From assembly GCF_027942865.1 (NCBI RefSeq), contig NC_134510.1, positions 28,065,163 to 28,129,162 of the forward strand: DNA of 64,000 nucleotides. The letters run 5' to 3'. The notes beneath the pieces are model-generated. The model was not told the origin of the DNA and did no database searches. It saw nothing but the letters and a program-made list of their open reading frames with translations. Origin of the DNA: Odontesthes bonariensis. Its lineage: Eukaryota; Chordata; Actinopteri; Atheriniformes; Atherinopsidae. Every line of letters begins with the position of its first letter. The first letter of the stretch is position 1. Below, piece after piece: positions 1,703 to 37,600 of the stretch. The position numbers and the translations under genes were made by a program.

Positions 1703-2686
1703 TTAGTTGGCGTCGACAAAAGACTGGTAGAGGGACATGAGCTGGGCCTGAAGGTCCTGGGCATAGGGGTCCAACTTTCCTCTCAAGTCCTCAGCATAGG
1801 GAGTAACCATTTGCTTTACCAGATTGGCTCTCTGACTGAGCTCAACTTGGACCTTCTCAGTCATGGGGGCCACACTTTTTTGGAACTCCTGCAGATGCTG
1901 GTCAACTTTCTGCTTCAGGTCGTCAGTGTAGGGTCCCAGCTGGGCCTGGAGATCCTTCACACTCTGCTCCAGGTTGGTCTTCAGCTCCTCGCTCTTCTGC
2001 ACCAGGGTGGTCCTCAGGGCCTCGGAGTCCAGGGAGTCGGCGTAGGGGGCCAGCTCCTGTTTGAGCTGCTCCACTCTTTGCTGGATCTGGGCCTTCATGT
2101 TCTCAGTGTAAGGTTCCAGCTTGTCCCTGACAGAGCTCAGCTCCTGGGTCAGCACATTTTTCAGCACATCAGCCTCCGTGGTGATCTTATTCATCATGTC
2201 ATGGGCTGCGGGGGGAAGCTGCTCCTGCAGGGTGACTGCATACTCGCTGGCTAGGTCAGCACTTTCTGTCAGACGGTCACTAGAAGACAAAGTGATTGTC
2301 CTAACATCAGAGGTTTGTTTAACACCACACCAGTCATATGACATGTGCTCCCCAGAGACTCAGTGCTATTAATGTCACACATCTTACTTGATTTCCTGTC
2401 CAATCGGTGATTTCCTGATCATCTGGAGGGTGTCATCAGCTGTCTGTGTGGCCTTGGCAATGTAGTCCCAGAAAGCATCAGTCAGCACTTCCAGCTGTGG
2501 TTTGGGTGCATCAGCATAGAAGAGATTGGCATGGCAGCCTGTTGGATGGAAATAACAATGATGTGAGAATAGGGCAGATATCCAGTCTCACTGTTCATTT
2601 TCATTGCGATGGCCATTAGCTTTGACTTGAAAATCTTGCGACTTACCAGAGAGCACTGCAACAGCTAGTACAACAAACACCTTCAT
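1703..2686 (-). CDS. apoa4: Apolipoprotein A-IV (copy 1, minus strand)
   Basis: Secreted exchangeable apolipoprotein of plasma and chylomicron-type particles. Coding exons read 2686-2647, 2538-2388 and 2279-1703, with consensus GT-AG borders, and give 255 residues. The first exon encodes a hydrophobic signal peptide starting MKVFVVLAVAVLSGC and ends in phase 1; the second intron is phase 2. The mature protein begins near ANLFYADAPKP. The last exon encodes tandem 22-residue amphipathic helices, most starting with Pro followed by Tyr, Met or Phe (PYTEN, PYADS, PYTDD, PMTEK, PYAED), which is the apoA-I/A-IV/E hallmark. The length is well below mammalian apoA-IV but usual for fish copies. It lies head to head with a second 255-residue copy about 1.8 kb away. 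A fish apoA-I-like name is possible, but the AD-PKP start and the partner copy favour apoA-IV. Confidence 0.9.
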
Positions 2687-4518: not shown

Positions 4519-5525
4519 ATGAAGGTCCTTGCTGTGCTCGTCCTGGCCGTTTTCACTGGTGAGCAAGCTGGAAAAACAGCAACTCTATTGCAAATGCAAA
4601 TCTCAATTAATATAAATCAGACACCTGTCCTACATTGTTGAAATGTTTATGTTGTTCTTTTATCTACTAGGCTGCAATGCCAACCTCTTCTATGCTGATG
4701 CCCCAAAGCCACAAATGGAAGTGGTGACTGAGGCTTTCTGGGACTATGTTTCCAAAGCCACCCAGACAGCTGATGACACCCTTCAGTTGATCAAGAAGTC
4801 TCAGTTTGGACAGGATGTCAGGTAAGTCAGACAAGACCACATGACATGATAACAATTAAGAAAAACCATATAGAGTTCACTGACATGCAGACACTAAGCT
4901 TAAAATCACATTATCCTGCTTTTCCTCTCATCTCATCTTTTCAACTAGTGCCCGTCTGACAGAAAGTACTGACTTGGCCAGCAAGTATGCAGTCACCCTG
5001 CAGGAGCAGCTTCCCCCTACAGCCCAGGAACTGATCACCAAAGTCACCACTGAGGCTGATGTGTTGAGAGAGCGTGTGACCCAGGAGCTGAGCACAGCCA
5101 GGGAGAAGCTGGAGCCCTTCACCGAGAACATGAAGGCCCAGATCCAGCAAAGAGTGGAACAGCTCAAACAGGAGCTGGCCCCCTATGCTGACTCCCTGGA
5201 CTCTGAGGCCCTGAGGACCACCCTGTTGCAGAGGAGTGAGGAGCTGAAGGCCAGCCTGGAGCAGAGTGTGCAGGACCTCCAGGCACAGCTGGGACCCTAC
5301 ACTGACGACCTGAAGCTGAAGGTTGACCAGCATCTGCAGGAATTCAAGGAGAGCATGGCCCCCGTCACCGAGAGAGTTCAGAGTGAGCTCGGGCAGAGAG
5401 CCCAGCAGGTGAAAGAATTGGCCGCTCCCTACGTTGATGACCTGAGAGATAAGCTGGACCCCTATGCCCAGGACCTCCAGGCTCGTCTCACCTCTCTCTA
5501 TGAGTCCTTTGTTAAAACCAATTAA
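4519..5525 (+). CDS. apoa4: Apolipoprotein A-IV (copy 2, plus strand)
   Basis: Secreted lipid-binding apolipoprotein, paralogue of the minus-strand copy. Coding exons are 4519-4558, 4671-4821 and 4949-5525, the same sizes (40, 151 and 577 bp) and phases as copy 1, and again give 255 residues. The signal peptide starts MKVLAVLVLAVFTGC and the mature chain begins near ANLFYADAPKP. The helical part carries Pro-spaced 22-mers (PFTEN, PYADS, PYTDD, PVTER, PYVDD). About 37 residues from the MKAQIQQ motif to LRTTL are identical to copy 1, and the underlying DNA is nearly identical there, while flanking helices differ more. The ATG is fixed by the short signal exon. No premature stop is seen; both copies look functional. 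Confidence 0.92.
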
Positions 5526-28689: not shown

Positions 28690-30850
28690 ATTTATGCAAA
28701 AAAAGTTGTTCATGTGGTTGATTCATGATAACTTCACATCGTGTTTGACATTTGTTTGTGTCAGCTTTGTGTCTTCTGTCAGCTCAGAGGTGTGCAGAAT
28801 CACATGTTTTGTCTGCATAAATCTGCAATGAGCAGAGGCATCACCAGAACAGAAGGCTTCTGCTGCAATTAATATTGGATGAAAAGACGAAAAAAACAAA
28901 ACATTTTGAATATGAGCATGGAGAAACTGAGAGACATGAATCAAAAACAAAGACTGGGACGTTTTGTTTTATTGACTCTGACAGCAACTGACGCAAGGGT
29001 GCTGGGATTTTTAATTCATGAATACATCCACAATATGCTGCTGCTTCGGAGGCTGCAGGACAACATACACAAGAGATGAATTTGCTTTTAAGCACCATCT
29101 TATGTTGGTGTTTCAGAAGAAAAACACTGTAGAGAGTCAGAGGACAACTGCATATTGCGTGTGGGTTTTTAAAGGGCCAAGCTTTTCTAACACTACCACT
29201 TCTACTACTGCTGCAGTTGTTATATAAGCACTCAACATGTCGATAAAGTGCAGATCTGTGTCATAGCACAGCTGTTGAATGCGTGCGCAGACGTGTCAAG
29301 ACTGTGTGAGAATATGTATACGTTTTGAATTTGTAAACCATATGTAAAGTAGTTTCCCTTAATAGGCAAAAAAATACAGAAATATAATTCGGACTGATGC
29401 TAATTTAATTTAATCTATCAGTATCTGCAGTTTTCAGCATCACGCAACAAAAAGTCTACTCCAGTTTCTGTGTAAAATTCCCCAGATCTTTACACAAACA
29501 GAAACTCACCATGTTATTATCAGTCAATGATAACTAAATATGCAGAGTTTTTAATTACTCTCAGTGCTCTTTCACTTTTTATTTGACTGCGGTTATTATC
29601 AGCTGATGAGCTTCTTAAGCCACTGCTTCTAATTAGTGGATATTACGTGATGCAACGAGAACCTTGTTTCGATAGAACTGACACGCTGTTTTGTCACAGG
29701 ATATTTTTAAAACATTAACTATGGTCTCTTGAGAAATATCCAACAGCTGGGAAATAAATGAGAACACAGAAGTAACATGGAAACATTGATAACAGGTGAA
29801 GTTTTGGAGTCATTCAGGGGCAAACAGATCACTCAGTCAGAAATGTTCAGAAAGAATAAAGAGATTAGTTACCTTGATGCTGCCAGGACAGCTCAGAACT
29901 TTGAGGTATGGGCAGACAAGCTATGGTGGTGCCATGTGAACACTTGAAGCAGGACACTAGCAACGGACCCTTTGGCTCCTAAGAGCTTGGATCTGGCTTG
30001 TTCCAGCTTAGCCCGTGGATGTTTTTACAGATCAGGATCTTTGGAATCTAATAGCCAGGTTAACACCATGTCCTCTATGTAGTGGCTCTCCCTGTTCTTT
30101 GTTAGGTTTGGCTGTACAGCTTGTCCTGAAACAACTTGTGATACCATTGCCCCAGTAGGTAAGTGAATGCCAGATTCCTCACCAGAACCAAACTCTAAAA
30201 AGATAACTAATGTTATTTACTTCACCTGTAAGTGGTTATAAAGTTGTGGCTGAAAATTTAACCCACTTATTCTTGAGCCTGAGTGCAAAAATGTCTACTT
30301 AAATCAGACCTGAAGAGAAAAATAATATCATTAGCAAATATTTAGACTTCCAAGAAGACGATTCAGAGTTCTTCAATGTCTTAGGCCTCTTAAATATTGC
30401 ATCATGGTAAAATATTAACTTTATAAAGAGGAAATCATTTCCCAACTCTTAGGTGTTTATCTTTGTTGTCATTACAAAACATTTGTCCATTTATCTAAGG
30501 CACAGTTGTTCATTTTTGAGTGCACTTTGAACAGATTAAGCCATGAATTTGGATTTAAAAAAGTCAAAAGAATACTATCCAGCTTTTCGATGATCTTCGT
30601 GCAATAAAAAACTAAACTAAACTAAAAGCACACCTAGAAAAGAAAACTATACTTTGAATGTAGTCTTCTTTGTTTTCAGAGAGGAACAAAGAGTTACAGG
30701 AAACAAGGTGCGTCACTAACCGAATAATCTGTAAGCCTGAGGTGCCGCCAATTTATCTGATAAGGTTATTACAAAGTTTATGGCAGAGTGGGAAATGATG
30801 CCGATTGTTAATTCATTGCCTGTTCCTCCCACTGTCCTCCAAAAGTTTGA
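28690..30850. other. Intergenic between apoC-II and the protease-like gene
   Basis: No supported gene. TOMM40, a frequent neighbour of APOE in vertebrates, was not recognised here or elsewhere in the window. Confidence 0.5.
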
Positions 30851-30853
30851 AGG

Positions 30854-30860
30854 TATAAAG
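30854..30860 (+). promoter_or_regulatory. TATA box of the pseudo-protease gene
   Basis: TATAAAG 66 bp before the start codon, giving a short 5' UTR with no need for an upstream exon, as in trypsinogen genes. Confidence 0.65.
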
Positions 30861-30925
30861 TAGACAGACTGATGAAAGTACATACAGCACATACAGTCTT
30901 GCAGGAAGAGCACCTCAAAAACAAG

Positions 30926-33900
30926 ATGAATCTTCTTCTTCTGGCTGCTACTTTGGGGCTTGCAGGTAAGAACTTACCAAGTTGTGATGTAAAACAGAGG
31001 AGATGAATATTAGACTAGCCTGTCATAATTTCTCTTTGATCTTGTTGGTGGTTTTTAGGAGCATCTCCCCTGCAGGCAAACAAAGAGTGCCAACCTCATT
31101 CAAGACCCTGGCATGTCAGGCTGCACGGTGGAACGCATTGCAGTGGAGCGCTTATCAATGAGTGGTGGATAGTGACCTCCTTTGATTGCCAACCATCGTA
31201 GGTGTTATTGAATCATAGTGCCAACTGAAAACTGATTTAAAATTTTTTTGGAGGGGTTGGTTCCACAAAGTTCCAGCAGTTGAATTGAGATTTTATCATT
31301 ATTTGTGATAAAATAAGGCCGAGTTACTTCAAATATCTTCTGATGTTGTTCCTTTTGTCTGTAGTTCGAGTGCCCTGGCTTTTTAAATACGTCTTTAATG
31401 AGCTGCTCCAGAGTTTCTAGGTTTCCCGAAGGGATTTAAAAACCCTTAGTGTGTGTTGTAATTGTTTTCCCACTAAAAACAGTGATTCATTTAAAGAGCA
31501 GACCTTTTTGTTAACTTTTCTGACACTTAGATTTTTGTTACACGACAAGCATGGCAGTACATTTAACCAAACATTGTTGAGTCAGATCTAATCTGTTGTT
31601 TTATTCAGTGTTGTCTTTTAGTCTTTCTTGGATAGTGTTAGAAAGACTAAGTATTGCTGACTGGTGTTGAAAAATCTCAGGTTGACTTTAATTAAACCTT
31701 ATTCATCAACCTGCTGTTCACGTCTTGTTCACAGAGTACTGTTCCTCAGTCATGGACCTGTTTTTGCCTGAGGCCACAGAGCTTGATGAATTGAAGTCTC
31801 GTCTCTATCCTTTGCAGAACCTACAACACCATCGCGTCTCTGGGGGAACATGACCAAACTGTGGAGGAAGGCACCGAGCAGCACATTAAGGTTTCTCACG
31901 TGATCCGTCACAGCCCCTACCGCTCACCTCTCCACAGCCTCATCATGGTGCGCCTGGCCCAGCCGGCTCGCTTCACCCAGTTTGTGAAGCCTATTCCGCT
32001 GCCCAGCCGCTGCCCACAGCCTGGAGAGACCTGCTCCGTCAGTGGCTGGGGCTCCACCATTGCAAATCAGTGTAAGTGGAATTTAAAGGTAGAACTGTAG
32101 ATTTTACATGTAATTACTTTGTCATCAAACTAAAACATATGTATAATTGCAGGACAACCCACTGTAATTAAATATTTCAAAATACGTTCGAAAGTTCTCC
32201 TGTGAAGGCACACAAATGTCCCTTCAGCATTATTTATAGCAGCTTTATTAGGAATTAAACTTTATTATACATGCTTGAGCAAATAAACACAGGGGTGATG
32301 TCAACGACAGCTGCATTTTCTGGGTGTGTCAGTAATGACACTGATTTAGTGGGGTTACATGATGAGAATAATTCGATTATGGCTATAGTTGGGTTATGCT
32401 TCTTATTTGAGCAAGGGTAATTATCCTTGGATATATGGCGGTGAATGAATCGAATCATAGGCACAAAGCATGTCATACTCCGATACGATAGGTGGCGCTG
32501 TACCCATTTCAACTATTGCTGATAGAGCCACTTCCGGTTGATCGCTTCACCACCAACAACAACAAAATCAGGCGAACAAGATGAAGCTACTTCCCTCTAC
32601 ACTTCGTCTGTGATGAGCTGCTTATTGCACAAACGCGAACGGCGCATTCTCCATCACGTTGTTTGTTTCTTTCCGATGGCGGCGACAATTATAATATCGT
32701 CTCTTCCAACTTCCGGTTCCCGACCCCGAGAAAAAATCTTGAGCATGCGCAGAACACAAAGTCTAAAAGTCTAATTCACCACATGCTTCACCCGTCTACA
32801 AACACGTTTAATTTGACTTTCAACCGAGTTATCTCGGGGTCTTAATCCGATCACGAGTAATCCGATCCGATCCAATTTCTTGTCAGATTAAGATGTCTAC
32901 ATGAACTTAATAACTCAGTTTTATTGTAATTTAGCCAATAATCCGATCCTTTCAGTGCCACTGAGTCAGGCTTTGATTTCATACAATTTCAGTCTGACTA
33001 ACATTTTTATATGCATTATAAAAGTCTGGCTTTGGTAAGACCAGCAATGATGATCATTTTCTATTTCGTGTCATGCAAACGTGCTCATGGTAATCTACAG
33101 TCATGCGACTCATTGGAACAACATTAGCCTCTCTTCTGATGAAGTTTTGTTCATGTGTGACACGTTCCTTATCAAAGTTTGCACTTTGATTGGTGGTTGC
33201 AAATGCGTCTTCAATCCATCTTAACACTCTTCAGAAGAAAGAAGAAAAAAAAATTGCCGCAATAGTAGTAGTAACAACGTCTGTACAGGAGAAAAGCCTT
33301 ACACTAGATTTAGGCTTACAGCACTTCTGCTTTAATATTTCGCCCATGAGTCAGGGTAATGTTTGAGTCATCAGCAATTTGAAATGTATTTGATAAAAAA
33401 ACTTGTTATTATTCTGGTCACTGCAGCTCTAACAAGGCATGAACATTCTATGTTATCATGGCCTCCTTTGTCTATGTGTTAAAATGCCCAGTCAGTGATC
33501 AAGAGTTGAGAGTCAGTTGAGATCTTATGCTCCAGGGCAATAAGTGGCTGTGCATAAAAACAGGAGGCAATCCATTAACCAGTAGAATGAAAGAACATTC
33601 TTGTCAAATAATTTAAATGACATGCAATTTTACAAGTGATAGAATAGAAAAATACTTTCTTCATCTCCTGCGGGGGAAATTCAAATTTTCATGTCACTCA
33701 ATCAAAATATTTACAATGATTGTATATTAGAAAAAAATAAATGAATAAATAAATGTCAGAAGAACATGTCAGCAGTCACTGTTAAGAAGCATAATGACTG
33801 TGGGGACAAAGGACTTCCTGAACCTCTCACTCCCGATACATGTTATATCCATTTTGTTTTCACAATTTCAGACATAAAGATGAATAATAACATTCCATCT

Positions 33901-34430
33901 CTTTCCTCCTAAAAACAGATGACCCCTCTCCACACCTGAAGTGTATAACTGTGCCTATCGTGGATGATCAGACTTGCATGAACACCTTCCCTCCATACGT
34001 GTACTGGGGCCCACAAATGGTCTGCGCTGGTCAAGCGCACACAGACAACTGCCTGGTGAGCATGGACCCTAACCAAAGCTAAAGCAATTTTTTGCCACTA
34101 CTTCTGTCTTTGTGCTCATCTTAGTTTTTTTTCTCAATGTATTTATTAATTTCATCTTACCCTACAGTATCATAGCATTTCCGTCTCACATTGCACACAA
34201 TATTTTAAGTGTTTTTTTTTTTTACTGTCCCCTGTCCTCAGAACGAGAGAAGCGGTGTGATGGTGTGCGATGGCCAGCTGCAGGGCGTGACATGGTTCAG
34301 GCATGGCTGCGAGAACCCGGCAGACCCCACAGTTTACACCAAACTCTGCATGTACAATAACTGGATCAACAACGTAATGAACAACTTCACACCAACAACT
34401 ACACGCCGTCCACTGATGACGACGACATAA
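30926..34430 (+). CDS. Catalytically dead trypsin/kallikrein-like protein
   Basis: Predicted secreted S1-family serine protease homologue without protease activity. Coding exons 30926-30965, 31059-31197, 31818-32071, 33919-34055 and 34242-34430 give 252 residues, the five-exon plan of trypsinogen genes. Residues 1-15 form a signal peptide. The Ile-Val-Gly-Gly activation site is replaced by LQAN before KECQPHSRPW. His57 is replaced by Asp56 (VTSFDC), Asp102 by Ser100 (HSLIMVRL) and Ser195 by Arg193 (CLNERSGVMVC). The S1-pocket Asp (D187, TDNC) is kept, and all 12 cysteines of the vertebrate trypsin/kallikrein pattern are present (WGS, CAG and other core motifs intact). A Thr-rich tail NFTPTTTRRPLMTTT extends past the usual end and carries an N-glycosylation site. 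The reading frame is open throughout, so selection seems to have kept it. From memory, fish 'trypsinogen-like' genes at the antifreeze-glycoprotein/TOMM40 locus may be relatives; this needs checking. Confidence 0.85.
32320..32960. mobile_element. Probable degraded DNA-transposon (MITE-like) copy in intron 3
   Basis: CpG-containing stretch unlike the surrounding intron, with CTTCCGG twice and TAATCCGAT three times near the right side. The left edge (GGTTACATGATGAG) and the right edge read in reverse (GTTCATGTAGACAT) look like old inverted ends. The exact borders are unclear and the match to a family is from memory only. Confidence 0.4.
33640..33860 (+). repeat. Probable 3' tail of a teleost non-LTR (LINE-type) repeat
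   Basis: The phrases CTGCGGGGGAAATTCA and GGACAAAGGACTTCCTGAAC resemble the 3' region of a very common fish repeat. Old and diverged; family not assignable here. Confidence 0.4.
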
Positions 34431-34668
34431 AGAGCAGAGACACAGAGATAGAAAACACTGTTATGAACACTGCTCCTCACCATTTGGCAGGGGATGGTCG
34501 GTAATTGAAATGAAAACTTAGAGGTCATAATCAATTAAGATTGTGTGCAAGTTAAACTTTAGGTAATAGTAAAACTCAAATGAATTGTCTATTTCACATG
34601 GTTACTTGAAAATCTGTTGAAAGAAAACAAGCAATGCAATATCTTTTCATAGGCAGAAATTGTAATTT

Positions 34669-34674
34669 AATAAA
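34669..34674 (+). terminator. Poly(A) signal of the pseudo-protease gene
   Basis: AATAAA about 240 bp after the stop. Confidence 0.6.
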
Positions 34675-37600
34675 AATAAATGAATTGTGTTTATCCACTT
34701 TATATTGTTGTCATAAGTATCATTACACACTTTTTTTTCTTAGCTGGTTGATAGCTGCTGATATCTTTTTGTTTTGCTCCACTGGTTAGCCCTAAAAGCC
34801 AATAATTCCTTGAACTATAAGCTATATCACCACTTGTGCTTGAAACTGCTGTCTACAGAATGTTTAATTTCACAAGAGATCAAGTGAGTTTTTAGTGTGT
34901 ACTACTAAAGATGTTGCTCACTGTGAGGAACATACAGAGCTTATCACCTGAATCTGGGGCATTCCTGATCTCAGTGGAGTATTACATCCGCTTTTCATTT
35001 GCTTAAACAGTCCACAGTGGACATTTTTTGATTAATTTCAGCCTAGCAGCTATTTTCAGCGTAAAAAGTCTGCAGTAACACCACCTGGTGAGTATCAAAT
35101 AGTACTGTAATAAAGCAACAAATTGACGATTATATCAATTTCTCTACAAAGAGATGGATAATTCCCTGAAAGCTGCACGATGGTAAATATTATATAAATG
35201 CTGTAAATATTATCCTAACATTCATCATGTGGTTTGATACAATGACTATACAAGATTTATTGAATTTTCGTTTCCTGGTTGTGGAAAGAGTCAGCTGTTT
35301 GTATTGCTTTCTCACATTAATAATACAAGTAACAATATCCACTGCCCAGATAAATGTCAGGTTAGGGCCTAATCTTTCATATTGTGGCGCAGATTGGTGG
35401 TAGTTTGGGTCTTTTTGGTTCATTGAGAGTTGAGATCAGACAATACATGTTGTGCACTTGTTGCTCAGATTTGTCAAACTAGAACAGACCAAGCAAGTGC
35501 CCTCATTACATTCAATATGTGGTCCAGTGTGGACCAGAATGTTTGATCTAGCAAACAGGAGTGTACTGCCTCGCTGTGCGTAAGATGAATATGTTGGGTT
35601 GGGATAATTTGGGACAACTATTTTGCTATCTTGGAGCAGCTTCTTCTACGACATCCCACTGAACATAAAGATCAGTTCATGTAAGTTTAACTTGGAATTC
35701 TTATGTAACAAACTGACTTCTGTGTTTTACATGAGTAATTTGTATTTTGTTTGAAAAACAATTTTCTTAATGAAAATCTTTTCCTAAATTAATACACTTA
35801 ATTATTTTAAAACATTGAAAACAAATTAGTCAAATACAGATATTCTGGTAATAAGATGTGTCTGGAAATATTGCCTGATGGCGAGCAGATGCTGCCAAAG
35901 ATCAAGGAATAAATTATATGAATAACCACTAGAGGATGGTAAAGCCCAACAATACAAACACGAGGGCCACAGAGAGACCAGAGAGTGAGCGTCGGTGTGG
36001 ACAGGTGACCCATATTCCACATTCTTTACATTTTGTCTGAACTCTGCAAACACACCAAGACATTTGCAAAAATATGTTACAGCAATAAACACGTGGATGC
36101 GATCTAACATTACCAAGACACAAAGGAACTGGGGAACACATGGGGAAGTCAGAGGCATGCTCACAGACACAAACTCAAATATACACATGCACACACACTT
36201 ACATGAAAAGTGACTGACAGCTGCGTCCGTAATCACCCAAACAGAGGGGCCACTCTGCCATCTGTTCACAGCATTTCTCTCCCGTCCTCACCCCTTCTCT
36301 TCATGTTTTCTCACCTCAGTGGGAGACAGAAGGCAAACTGAGGGGTTGACTTTGGTAGCTGGGATGTCACTTTAGAACGCAGTGTGATATTAATTGGGGT
36401 GTATGCGCGGGGGGAAGTTTGAAGCATTTGGTTTTTCTTATTTTGAGTTGCGCTTAGGATAACCATTGTTCACAACTCTGAGGGATTTGACTGAGAGCAA
36501 TTTAATTCAATGACTTGTGAGTAACAGCAAGCTTTTACAGGAGCTACAATGGATTTTTTATTCTTTTTCTTTTTTTCTTTTCGTCAGAATACCAAAAAAG
36601 AGAAGTCTGAAATCTTATATAATCTTATATTTTCCCATATATATATTGTTGGTGTCTTTGTATACTGAATCCCAAATGATCTGCATGCTATTGGTCGCCT
36701 GTATACCTCCCTCCAAGAGGGTGTGGCTCACATATTCACAGTTTGCTTTTTAGATCTAATGCTTCTCTGTAATCGTCTAATCTCGCTATAAACCTTCTGG
36801 TATTTGAACTTGCTCATCTTATGCACTTCTGCAATTACCTCAGCTCTTCTCTGTAAACTTTAGATTAAATTGAACCTTCCTTTGTATCTAAATAAAGAGA
36901 GTCGTTGCTTTTCAATAAGGTTAAACAACTGACATTTTGAGTTAAAATCTTTTCAACAAACAATATGAGTTTACTTTGGTGAGCTGGAGGTCTGATAAGA
37001 CAAATATCACAAAATTCACCAGAACTTTGCAGATAAAGCCTATATTCCAGAGGTGTCCTGTGGTGTTTGGCTTAATGATGTTGCCAGCAAATCTTTTGGT
37101 TCCAATGGGTTGAGGGGTGGGCGTCTGTTGAATGGGCTTCTTCCATCACCCGGCCATTATACGGGAGTTGTTTCTCCCTGTAAGGGGCACATTATCTTGC
37201 ATCAGGAGGTTCTGTGGGGGGTGGGCTTAATCTGCTATTATGTTTTGGTTGTTATTGGTAACACCAGCATTAGCTTTAGGGCCAAAGGTTTCCCAGCAAA
37301 AGTAAGTATTGCAGTGAGATGATCACTGTTATTCACTTTATAGTTGACAGTGATTTTGTCTTACTGGTATAGAAGGGGAGTAGAATGAACTGCATCTTTC
37401 AGGGTATTAGTGTCCTTTTTTTAATCCAACATTGAGCAGAACTGGAAGTCTATTATCATGCTAGGTAAGGTGTAGCTTCTTAAGGCACTTTTTAGCTGTC
37501 AGTCTTTACATTGACACTGCTAACATGTGTATAATCAGGATAAATAATTGTTTGCAATGGTCACTATCCAAATGAAACATTAAGGGAGTGGATTGTATAA

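Follow-up and report, generated by a model that had tools for sequence, protein, structure and literature searches.

A probable secreted pseudoprotease derived from fish trypsin, encoded beyond an apolipoprotein cluster in Odontesthes bonariensis

Does a fish trypsin gene that has lost its catalytic residues with its reading frame open still encode a working protein, or is it on its way to becoming a pseudogene? The question is raised by a gene, here called pseudotrypsin, that lies in a 64,000-nt stretch of the Odontesthes bonariensis genome (GCF_027942865.1, NC_134510.1:28,065,163-28,129,162, forward strand; hereafter the window). An earlier note had credited this gene with a TATA box, five in-frame exons, all 12 structural cysteines, and the S1-pocket Asp, and had reported that His57, Asp102, Ser195, and Gly193 were replaced by Asp, Ser, Arg, and Asn and that the IVGG sequence at the zymogen N terminus was gone. 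Reconstruction of the gene from the raw sequence and alignment of its product bore out each of these points. The rebuilt model comprises five plus-strand exons (Table 1) with a coding sequence of 759 nt for 252 amino acids and no internal stops. All four introns are of the GT-AG type, with phases 1, 2, 1, and 0, and the exons have a GC content of 0.55 versus 0.37 for the introns (GC3, 0.63). A signal peptide, judged by eye, consists of MNLLLLAATLGLAGA followed by S. No repeats of 25 bases or more were found within 30700-34800.

Table 1. Features of the pseudotrypsin gene, in window positions
Feature	Position	Strand	Details
TATA box (TATAAA)	30854..30859	+	exact match, 72 bp 5' of ATG; putative element
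Exon 1	30926..30965	+	signal peptide by eye (MNLLLLAATLGLA..); 40 nt
Exon 2	31059..31197	+	N-terminal region, lacking both activation peptide and IVGG; Cys22, 42, 58; residue 57 is Asp
Exon 3	31818..32071	+	calcium-loop region, E70/E77/E80 kept; residue 102 is Ser; Cys128, 136
Exon 4	33919..34055	+	Cys157, 168, 182, 191; Asp189 kept; Ser190 to Asn; Gln192 to Leu
Exon 5	34242..34430	+	residues 193-195 are Asn-Glu-Arg; 216 Arg (or Phe); 226 Thr
Exon 5, further features	34242..34430	+	Cys201, 220, 232; Thr-rich tail NNFTPTTTRRPLMTTT; stop codon
Polyadenylation-type AATAAA motifs	34669..34680	+	start 239 and 245 bp 3' of stop; putative

The product belongs to the trypsin fold family. Residues 22-232 matched the Pfam Trypsin profile PF00089 across positions 5-220 of 220 (E 6.6e-43; 147.5 bits against a cut-off of 20.6), and a second, overlapping match to PF09342 was weak (26.1 bits; cut-off 25.2). 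NCBIfam, which covers proteins of bacteria and archaea, produced no match. The best solved-structure match was a trypsin, 1utj (E 6.2e-51), which we take to be from salmon, and trypsins made up the top 23 among the best 60 of 506 matching solved-structure sequences. All 12 aligned trypsin cysteines are kept; these are the sites of six disulphides, bonds that are predicted from sequence. In trypsin, the acidic loop residues 70, 77, and 80 have a role in calcium binding, and Glu is present at all three in pseudotrypsin; one local trypsin carries Asp at 70 and 77. Gene architecture also follows fish trypsin. Its 40-nt exon 1 is matched in length by that of two trypsins on this chromosome, and introns 1-4 fall in the same phases; in the two local copies that were fully read, exon 2 measures 151 nt, 12 nt more than here (40/139/254/137 in pseudotrypsin versus 40/151/251/137). 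Fish trypsins, represented here by 1utj and by four near-identical chromosomal copies plus a diverged fifth, share fold family and cysteines with pseudotrypsin. Unlike them, it is devoid of the triad, the oxyanion Gly, the activation peptide, and IVGG, has an altered pocket, and ends in a Thr-rich C-terminal tail that is absent from the trypsins compared. By eye, this tail (NNFTPTTTRRPLMTTT, window 34380-34427) contains many Thr residues and one N-glycosylation motif.

The functional sites of trypsin have been replaced almost throughout. We aligned pseudotrypsin, with signal peptides removed, to 1utj and five trypsins of the same genome, a set of six trypsins that includes the near-identical TRY94 and TRY98, with L045, read without its last exon, set aside. 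From standard trypsin numbering and function, we selected 16 invariant sites that serve catalysis, activation, or the S1 pocket; Asp189 is the sole one kept. The triad reads H57D, D102S, and S195R and the oxyanion site G193N, residues at odds with an active S1 peptidase. At the zymogen activation sites, I16L, V17Q, G18A, and G19N convert IVGG to LQAN, D194E accompanies them, and no DDDDK-like activation peptide was seen in the N-terminal region. Beyond the losses listed in the earlier note, the alignment revealed S190N, Q192L, D194E, S214W, W215F, G216R, and G226T. The assignment of 214-216 is ungapped; a one-residue shift would instead delete S214, keep W215, and give G216F, raising retention to 2/16, and in both readings residue 216 is something other than Gly, leaving the conclusion unchanged. 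Retention at functional sites (1/16) contrasts with 59/95 at the remaining positions shared by all six trypsins, 12 cysteines included (Fisher p=2.4e-5), and with 47/83 once the cysteines are removed (p=1.4e-4); these p-values are rough because two of the trypsins are near-identical and neighboring sites are non-independent. A count with four trypsins and signal peptides included gave 1/16 versus 74/144 (p=3.5e-4), and the six-trypsin count is preferred.

These replacements bear directly on the decoy role suggested in the earlier note, and on that of a canonical-inhibitor trap. A decoy would use its former active-site cleft to bind trypsin inhibitors or substrates and thereby spare active trypsins, and the Asp189 kept at the base of the pocket is in its favor. 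Its surroundings argue otherwise. Ser190 is now Asn, Gly216 Arg (or Phe), and Gly226 Thr, and Trp215 is Phe (or kept, in the shifted alignment); Ile16 and Asp194, which order the pocket, are changed as well, such that an open S1 pocket would not be expected from the sequence. Trypsin specificity, which calls for Asp189 together with an open pocket, is likewise at odds with Arg or Phe at 216 and Thr at 226. Because Ile16, Asp194, and the pocket glycines are lost, both catalysis and canonical inhibitor trapping are unlikely. The replacement of 190, 216, and 226 leaves the decoy proposal considerably weakened, and we consider it highly improbable.

A second alternative is that pseudotrypsin is a recently silenced trypsin-like gene becoming a pseudogene, with its function gone and its frame open by chance. 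Silencing has in its favor the long branch of the gene, the changes at 36/95 of the invariant trypsin sites outside the functional set, and the ongoing decay of further trypsin copies elsewhere on the chromosome. A local example of such decay is provided by two trypsin-like fragments about 160 kb from pseudotrypsin on the same chromosome; they contain in-frame stops, point in opposite directions, and are flanked by the trypsin cluster and CBL (L013-L014, C6:27931.6-27936.1 kb). Pseudotrypsin, in contrast, has no stops, frameshifts, or splice damage, keeps 12/12 cysteines, and shows losses concentrated at functional sites. To gauge how long an open frame would last, neutral decay was simulated in 300 runs that started from an intact local trypsin, used the base composition of the pseudotrypsin introns, and introduced substitutions only, without indels. 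After decay to 42% identity (observed, ~39%), the mean number of stops was 7.4, and neither an open frame nor a full set of cysteines survived in any run (0/300 each). The frame was open in 0/300 runs at 60% identity and, at 80% identity, in 22/300, with all cysteines kept in 10/300. Given that simulated decay to this divergence leaves no open frames, the gene has probably been under constraint for most of its divergence, although the simulation treats all divergence as neutral. Silencing, if recent, would require a long constrained, non-enzymatic phase beforehand, and we judge it unlikely as an account of the gene. A short, recent relaxation of constraint is possible, and the very long branch fits a phase of relaxed constraint as well as rapid adaptive evolution. 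Since the cysteines are kept and the frame is open, the fold likely matters. The earlier argument that decay would not be expected to spare the fold holds to this extent, in that the gene is intact and no simulated frame stayed open at comparable divergence; its premise that only the catalytic parts had been hit was too strong, with 36/95 other sites also changed.

Where, then, did the gene come from? A whole-genome search located pseudotrypsin once in the 945-Mb genome. Among at least 30 matches, four were the gene's own exons (4/5 exons, 90-98% identity), and the 26 others had identities of 29-51%; by BLAST, identity to seven trypsin rows was 37.9-39.7%. Trees placed pseudotrypsin with the trypsins. 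Against seven non-trypsin S1 genes of this genome, the trypsins with pseudotrypsin included split off with 99/99 support (14 rows) and 98/97 support (17 rows); against five of these seven, support was 100/100 (13 rows). Fourteen non-trypsin S1 loci had been collected (L001-L008, L030-L035), and seven of them entered these trees, the others being L002, L003, L005-L008, and L031; the 13-row tree was also built without L001, L004, and both decayed rows. Within the trypsins, support for the nearest split of pseudotrypsin was 70/65 (17 rows) or 81/99 (13 rows), and its branch length was 1.59-1.88. On this sequence evidence, pseudotrypsin descends from fish trypsins along a long branch, with no sister group among them singled out by the trees. 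Intron content offers a further comparison. Six exons make up each of the local trypsins that were read by script (two genes), the number also given for notothenioid TRYP1 in PMC11708224. Copies in the local cluster carry an extra last intron (two by script, a third by hand) that is absent from pseudotrypsin, from the trypsins in L041 and L047, and from both decayed fragments. L041 (C6:20.73 Mb) encodes a trypsin with the triad and IVGG, without the last intron, and several of its exon 5 residues are in common with pseudotrypsin (MVCDG-LQGV, HGC). The L041 trypsin is a candidate for the nearest relative, one without tree support.

On the same chromosome, five trypsin genes occupy C6:27.890-27.919 Mb; two were read completely by script and a third by hand, and the remaining two are represented by exon pieces. 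This cluster (L009-L012, C6:27890-27919.7 kb) consists of four near-identical trypsins, one of them inverted, and a diverged fifth copy; the near-identity of the copies suggests recent duplication. A lone last-exon-like trypsin fragment was also observed near C6:27919.6 kb. Past the cluster come the decayed fragments (27.932-27.936 Mb), CBL exons (27.942-27.950), and a TOMM40 exon (27.995). Within the window, the order is two apolipoprotein A1/A4/E genes, an apoE-type exon, an apoC-I exon, two small genes, pseudotrypsin, and an immunoglobulin-domain gene, which puts pseudotrypsin ~101 kb past the TOMM40 exon and beyond the apolipoprotein cluster. The A1/A4/E pair (PF01442; window 1706-2359 on the minus strand and 4884-5522 on the plus strand) is similar in sequence and divergently oriented. 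For the apoE-type exon, the apolipoprotein A1/A4/E domain scored below cut-off (65.9 of 90 bits). The two small genes look like apolipoproteins by eye and had no Pfam matches, and the immunoglobulin-domain gene is BCAM-like by eye. In the 8 kb just beyond the window (L029), the open frames contained no gene recognizable by eye.

This map bears on possible orthology between pseudotrypsin and the trypsinogen-like protease (TLP) of notothenioids, a gene tied to the origin of the antifreeze glycoprotein (AFGP). The earlier note had raised an orthologue at the TOMM40/antifreeze locus, and pseudotrypsin does share a chromosome region with trypsins, CBL, and TOMM40, genes that published accounts put at the AFGP locus or on its flanks. 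Notothenioid TLP and tryp3 are likewise trypsin-related genes in a chromosome region with TOMM40 and CBL. Published accounts, PMC11708224 among them, however, place the TLP/antifreeze locus between hsl and tomm40, whereas pseudotrypsin lies past tomm40 and the apolipoproteins. The decayed trypsin-like fragments, across TOMM40 and near the trypsin cluster, sit at the inferred place of tryp3 or TLP and are possible counterparts of one or the other. Because pseudotrypsin falls outside the interval matching hsl-tomm40, position speaks against TLP identity, in a comparison made by map place alone and with hsl not located here. We accordingly regard TLP as a very unlikely identity for pseudotrypsin, and the placement at the antifreeze locus gives way, by position, to one past TOMM40 and the apolipoprotein cluster.

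We therefore favor, as the probable explanation from sequence, a functional secreted pseudoprotease, an S1 trypsin non-peptidase homologue that arose from a duplicated fish trypsinogen and would act by binding a partner. Following duplication, the product would be secreted, as suggested by its hydrophobic N terminus, and would fold as trypsin does, held by six disulphides and perhaps by the calcium loop. It would need no activation cleavage and would be unable to cleave peptides; partner binding would run through surface loops rather than the old cleft. Possible sites of action are the plasma, given the adjoining apolipoprotein genes, or the gut. A more specific and rather doubtful version envisions an old, teleost-specific plasma or gut binding scaffold derived from a digestive trypsin, with an O-glycosylated Thr-rich tail and an S1 pocket plugged from inside: an internal arginine (Arg195 or Arg216) would hold Asp189, and no activation cleavage would be needed. 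Were this version true, the gene could have been taken up as a lipoprotein or plasma partner at its site next to the apolipoprotein genes.

Proteins of this general kind are familiar. Haptoglobin, azurocidin, protein Z, the HGF beta chain, and insect serine protease homologues are non-catalytic S1 homologues in which the trypsin fold is kept, catalytic residues are lost, and the function is binding. Because such non-catalytic relatives are well established, there is nothing new in the general idea. Pseudotrypsin resembles them, at the level of general features, in keeping the fold while losing catalytic residues, and differs in being a single-domain trypsin derivative in which the whole triad, the activation site, and the S1 pocket are changed. 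Annotations of public fish genomes may well include the gene already, labeled as trypsin-like. In PMC5968468, a transcript from the gut of sea bass carries the product name 'Trypsinogen-like protein 3', a label that points to a trypsin relative, and pseudotrypsin is possibly the 'trypsinogen-like protein 3' of fish annotations. In the titles and abstract beginnings examined from open-licence papers, we found no description of this gene at the apolipoprotein cluster.

Trypsin is one of the best-understood enzymes. Set against that background, pseudotrypsin would offer a clean case of the passage from enzyme to binding protein, in which fold family and cysteines are kept and nearly all working parts are replaced. 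Its map position also sets it apart from the trypsinogen-like genes of the antifreeze locus, with which its neighborhood makes it easily confused.
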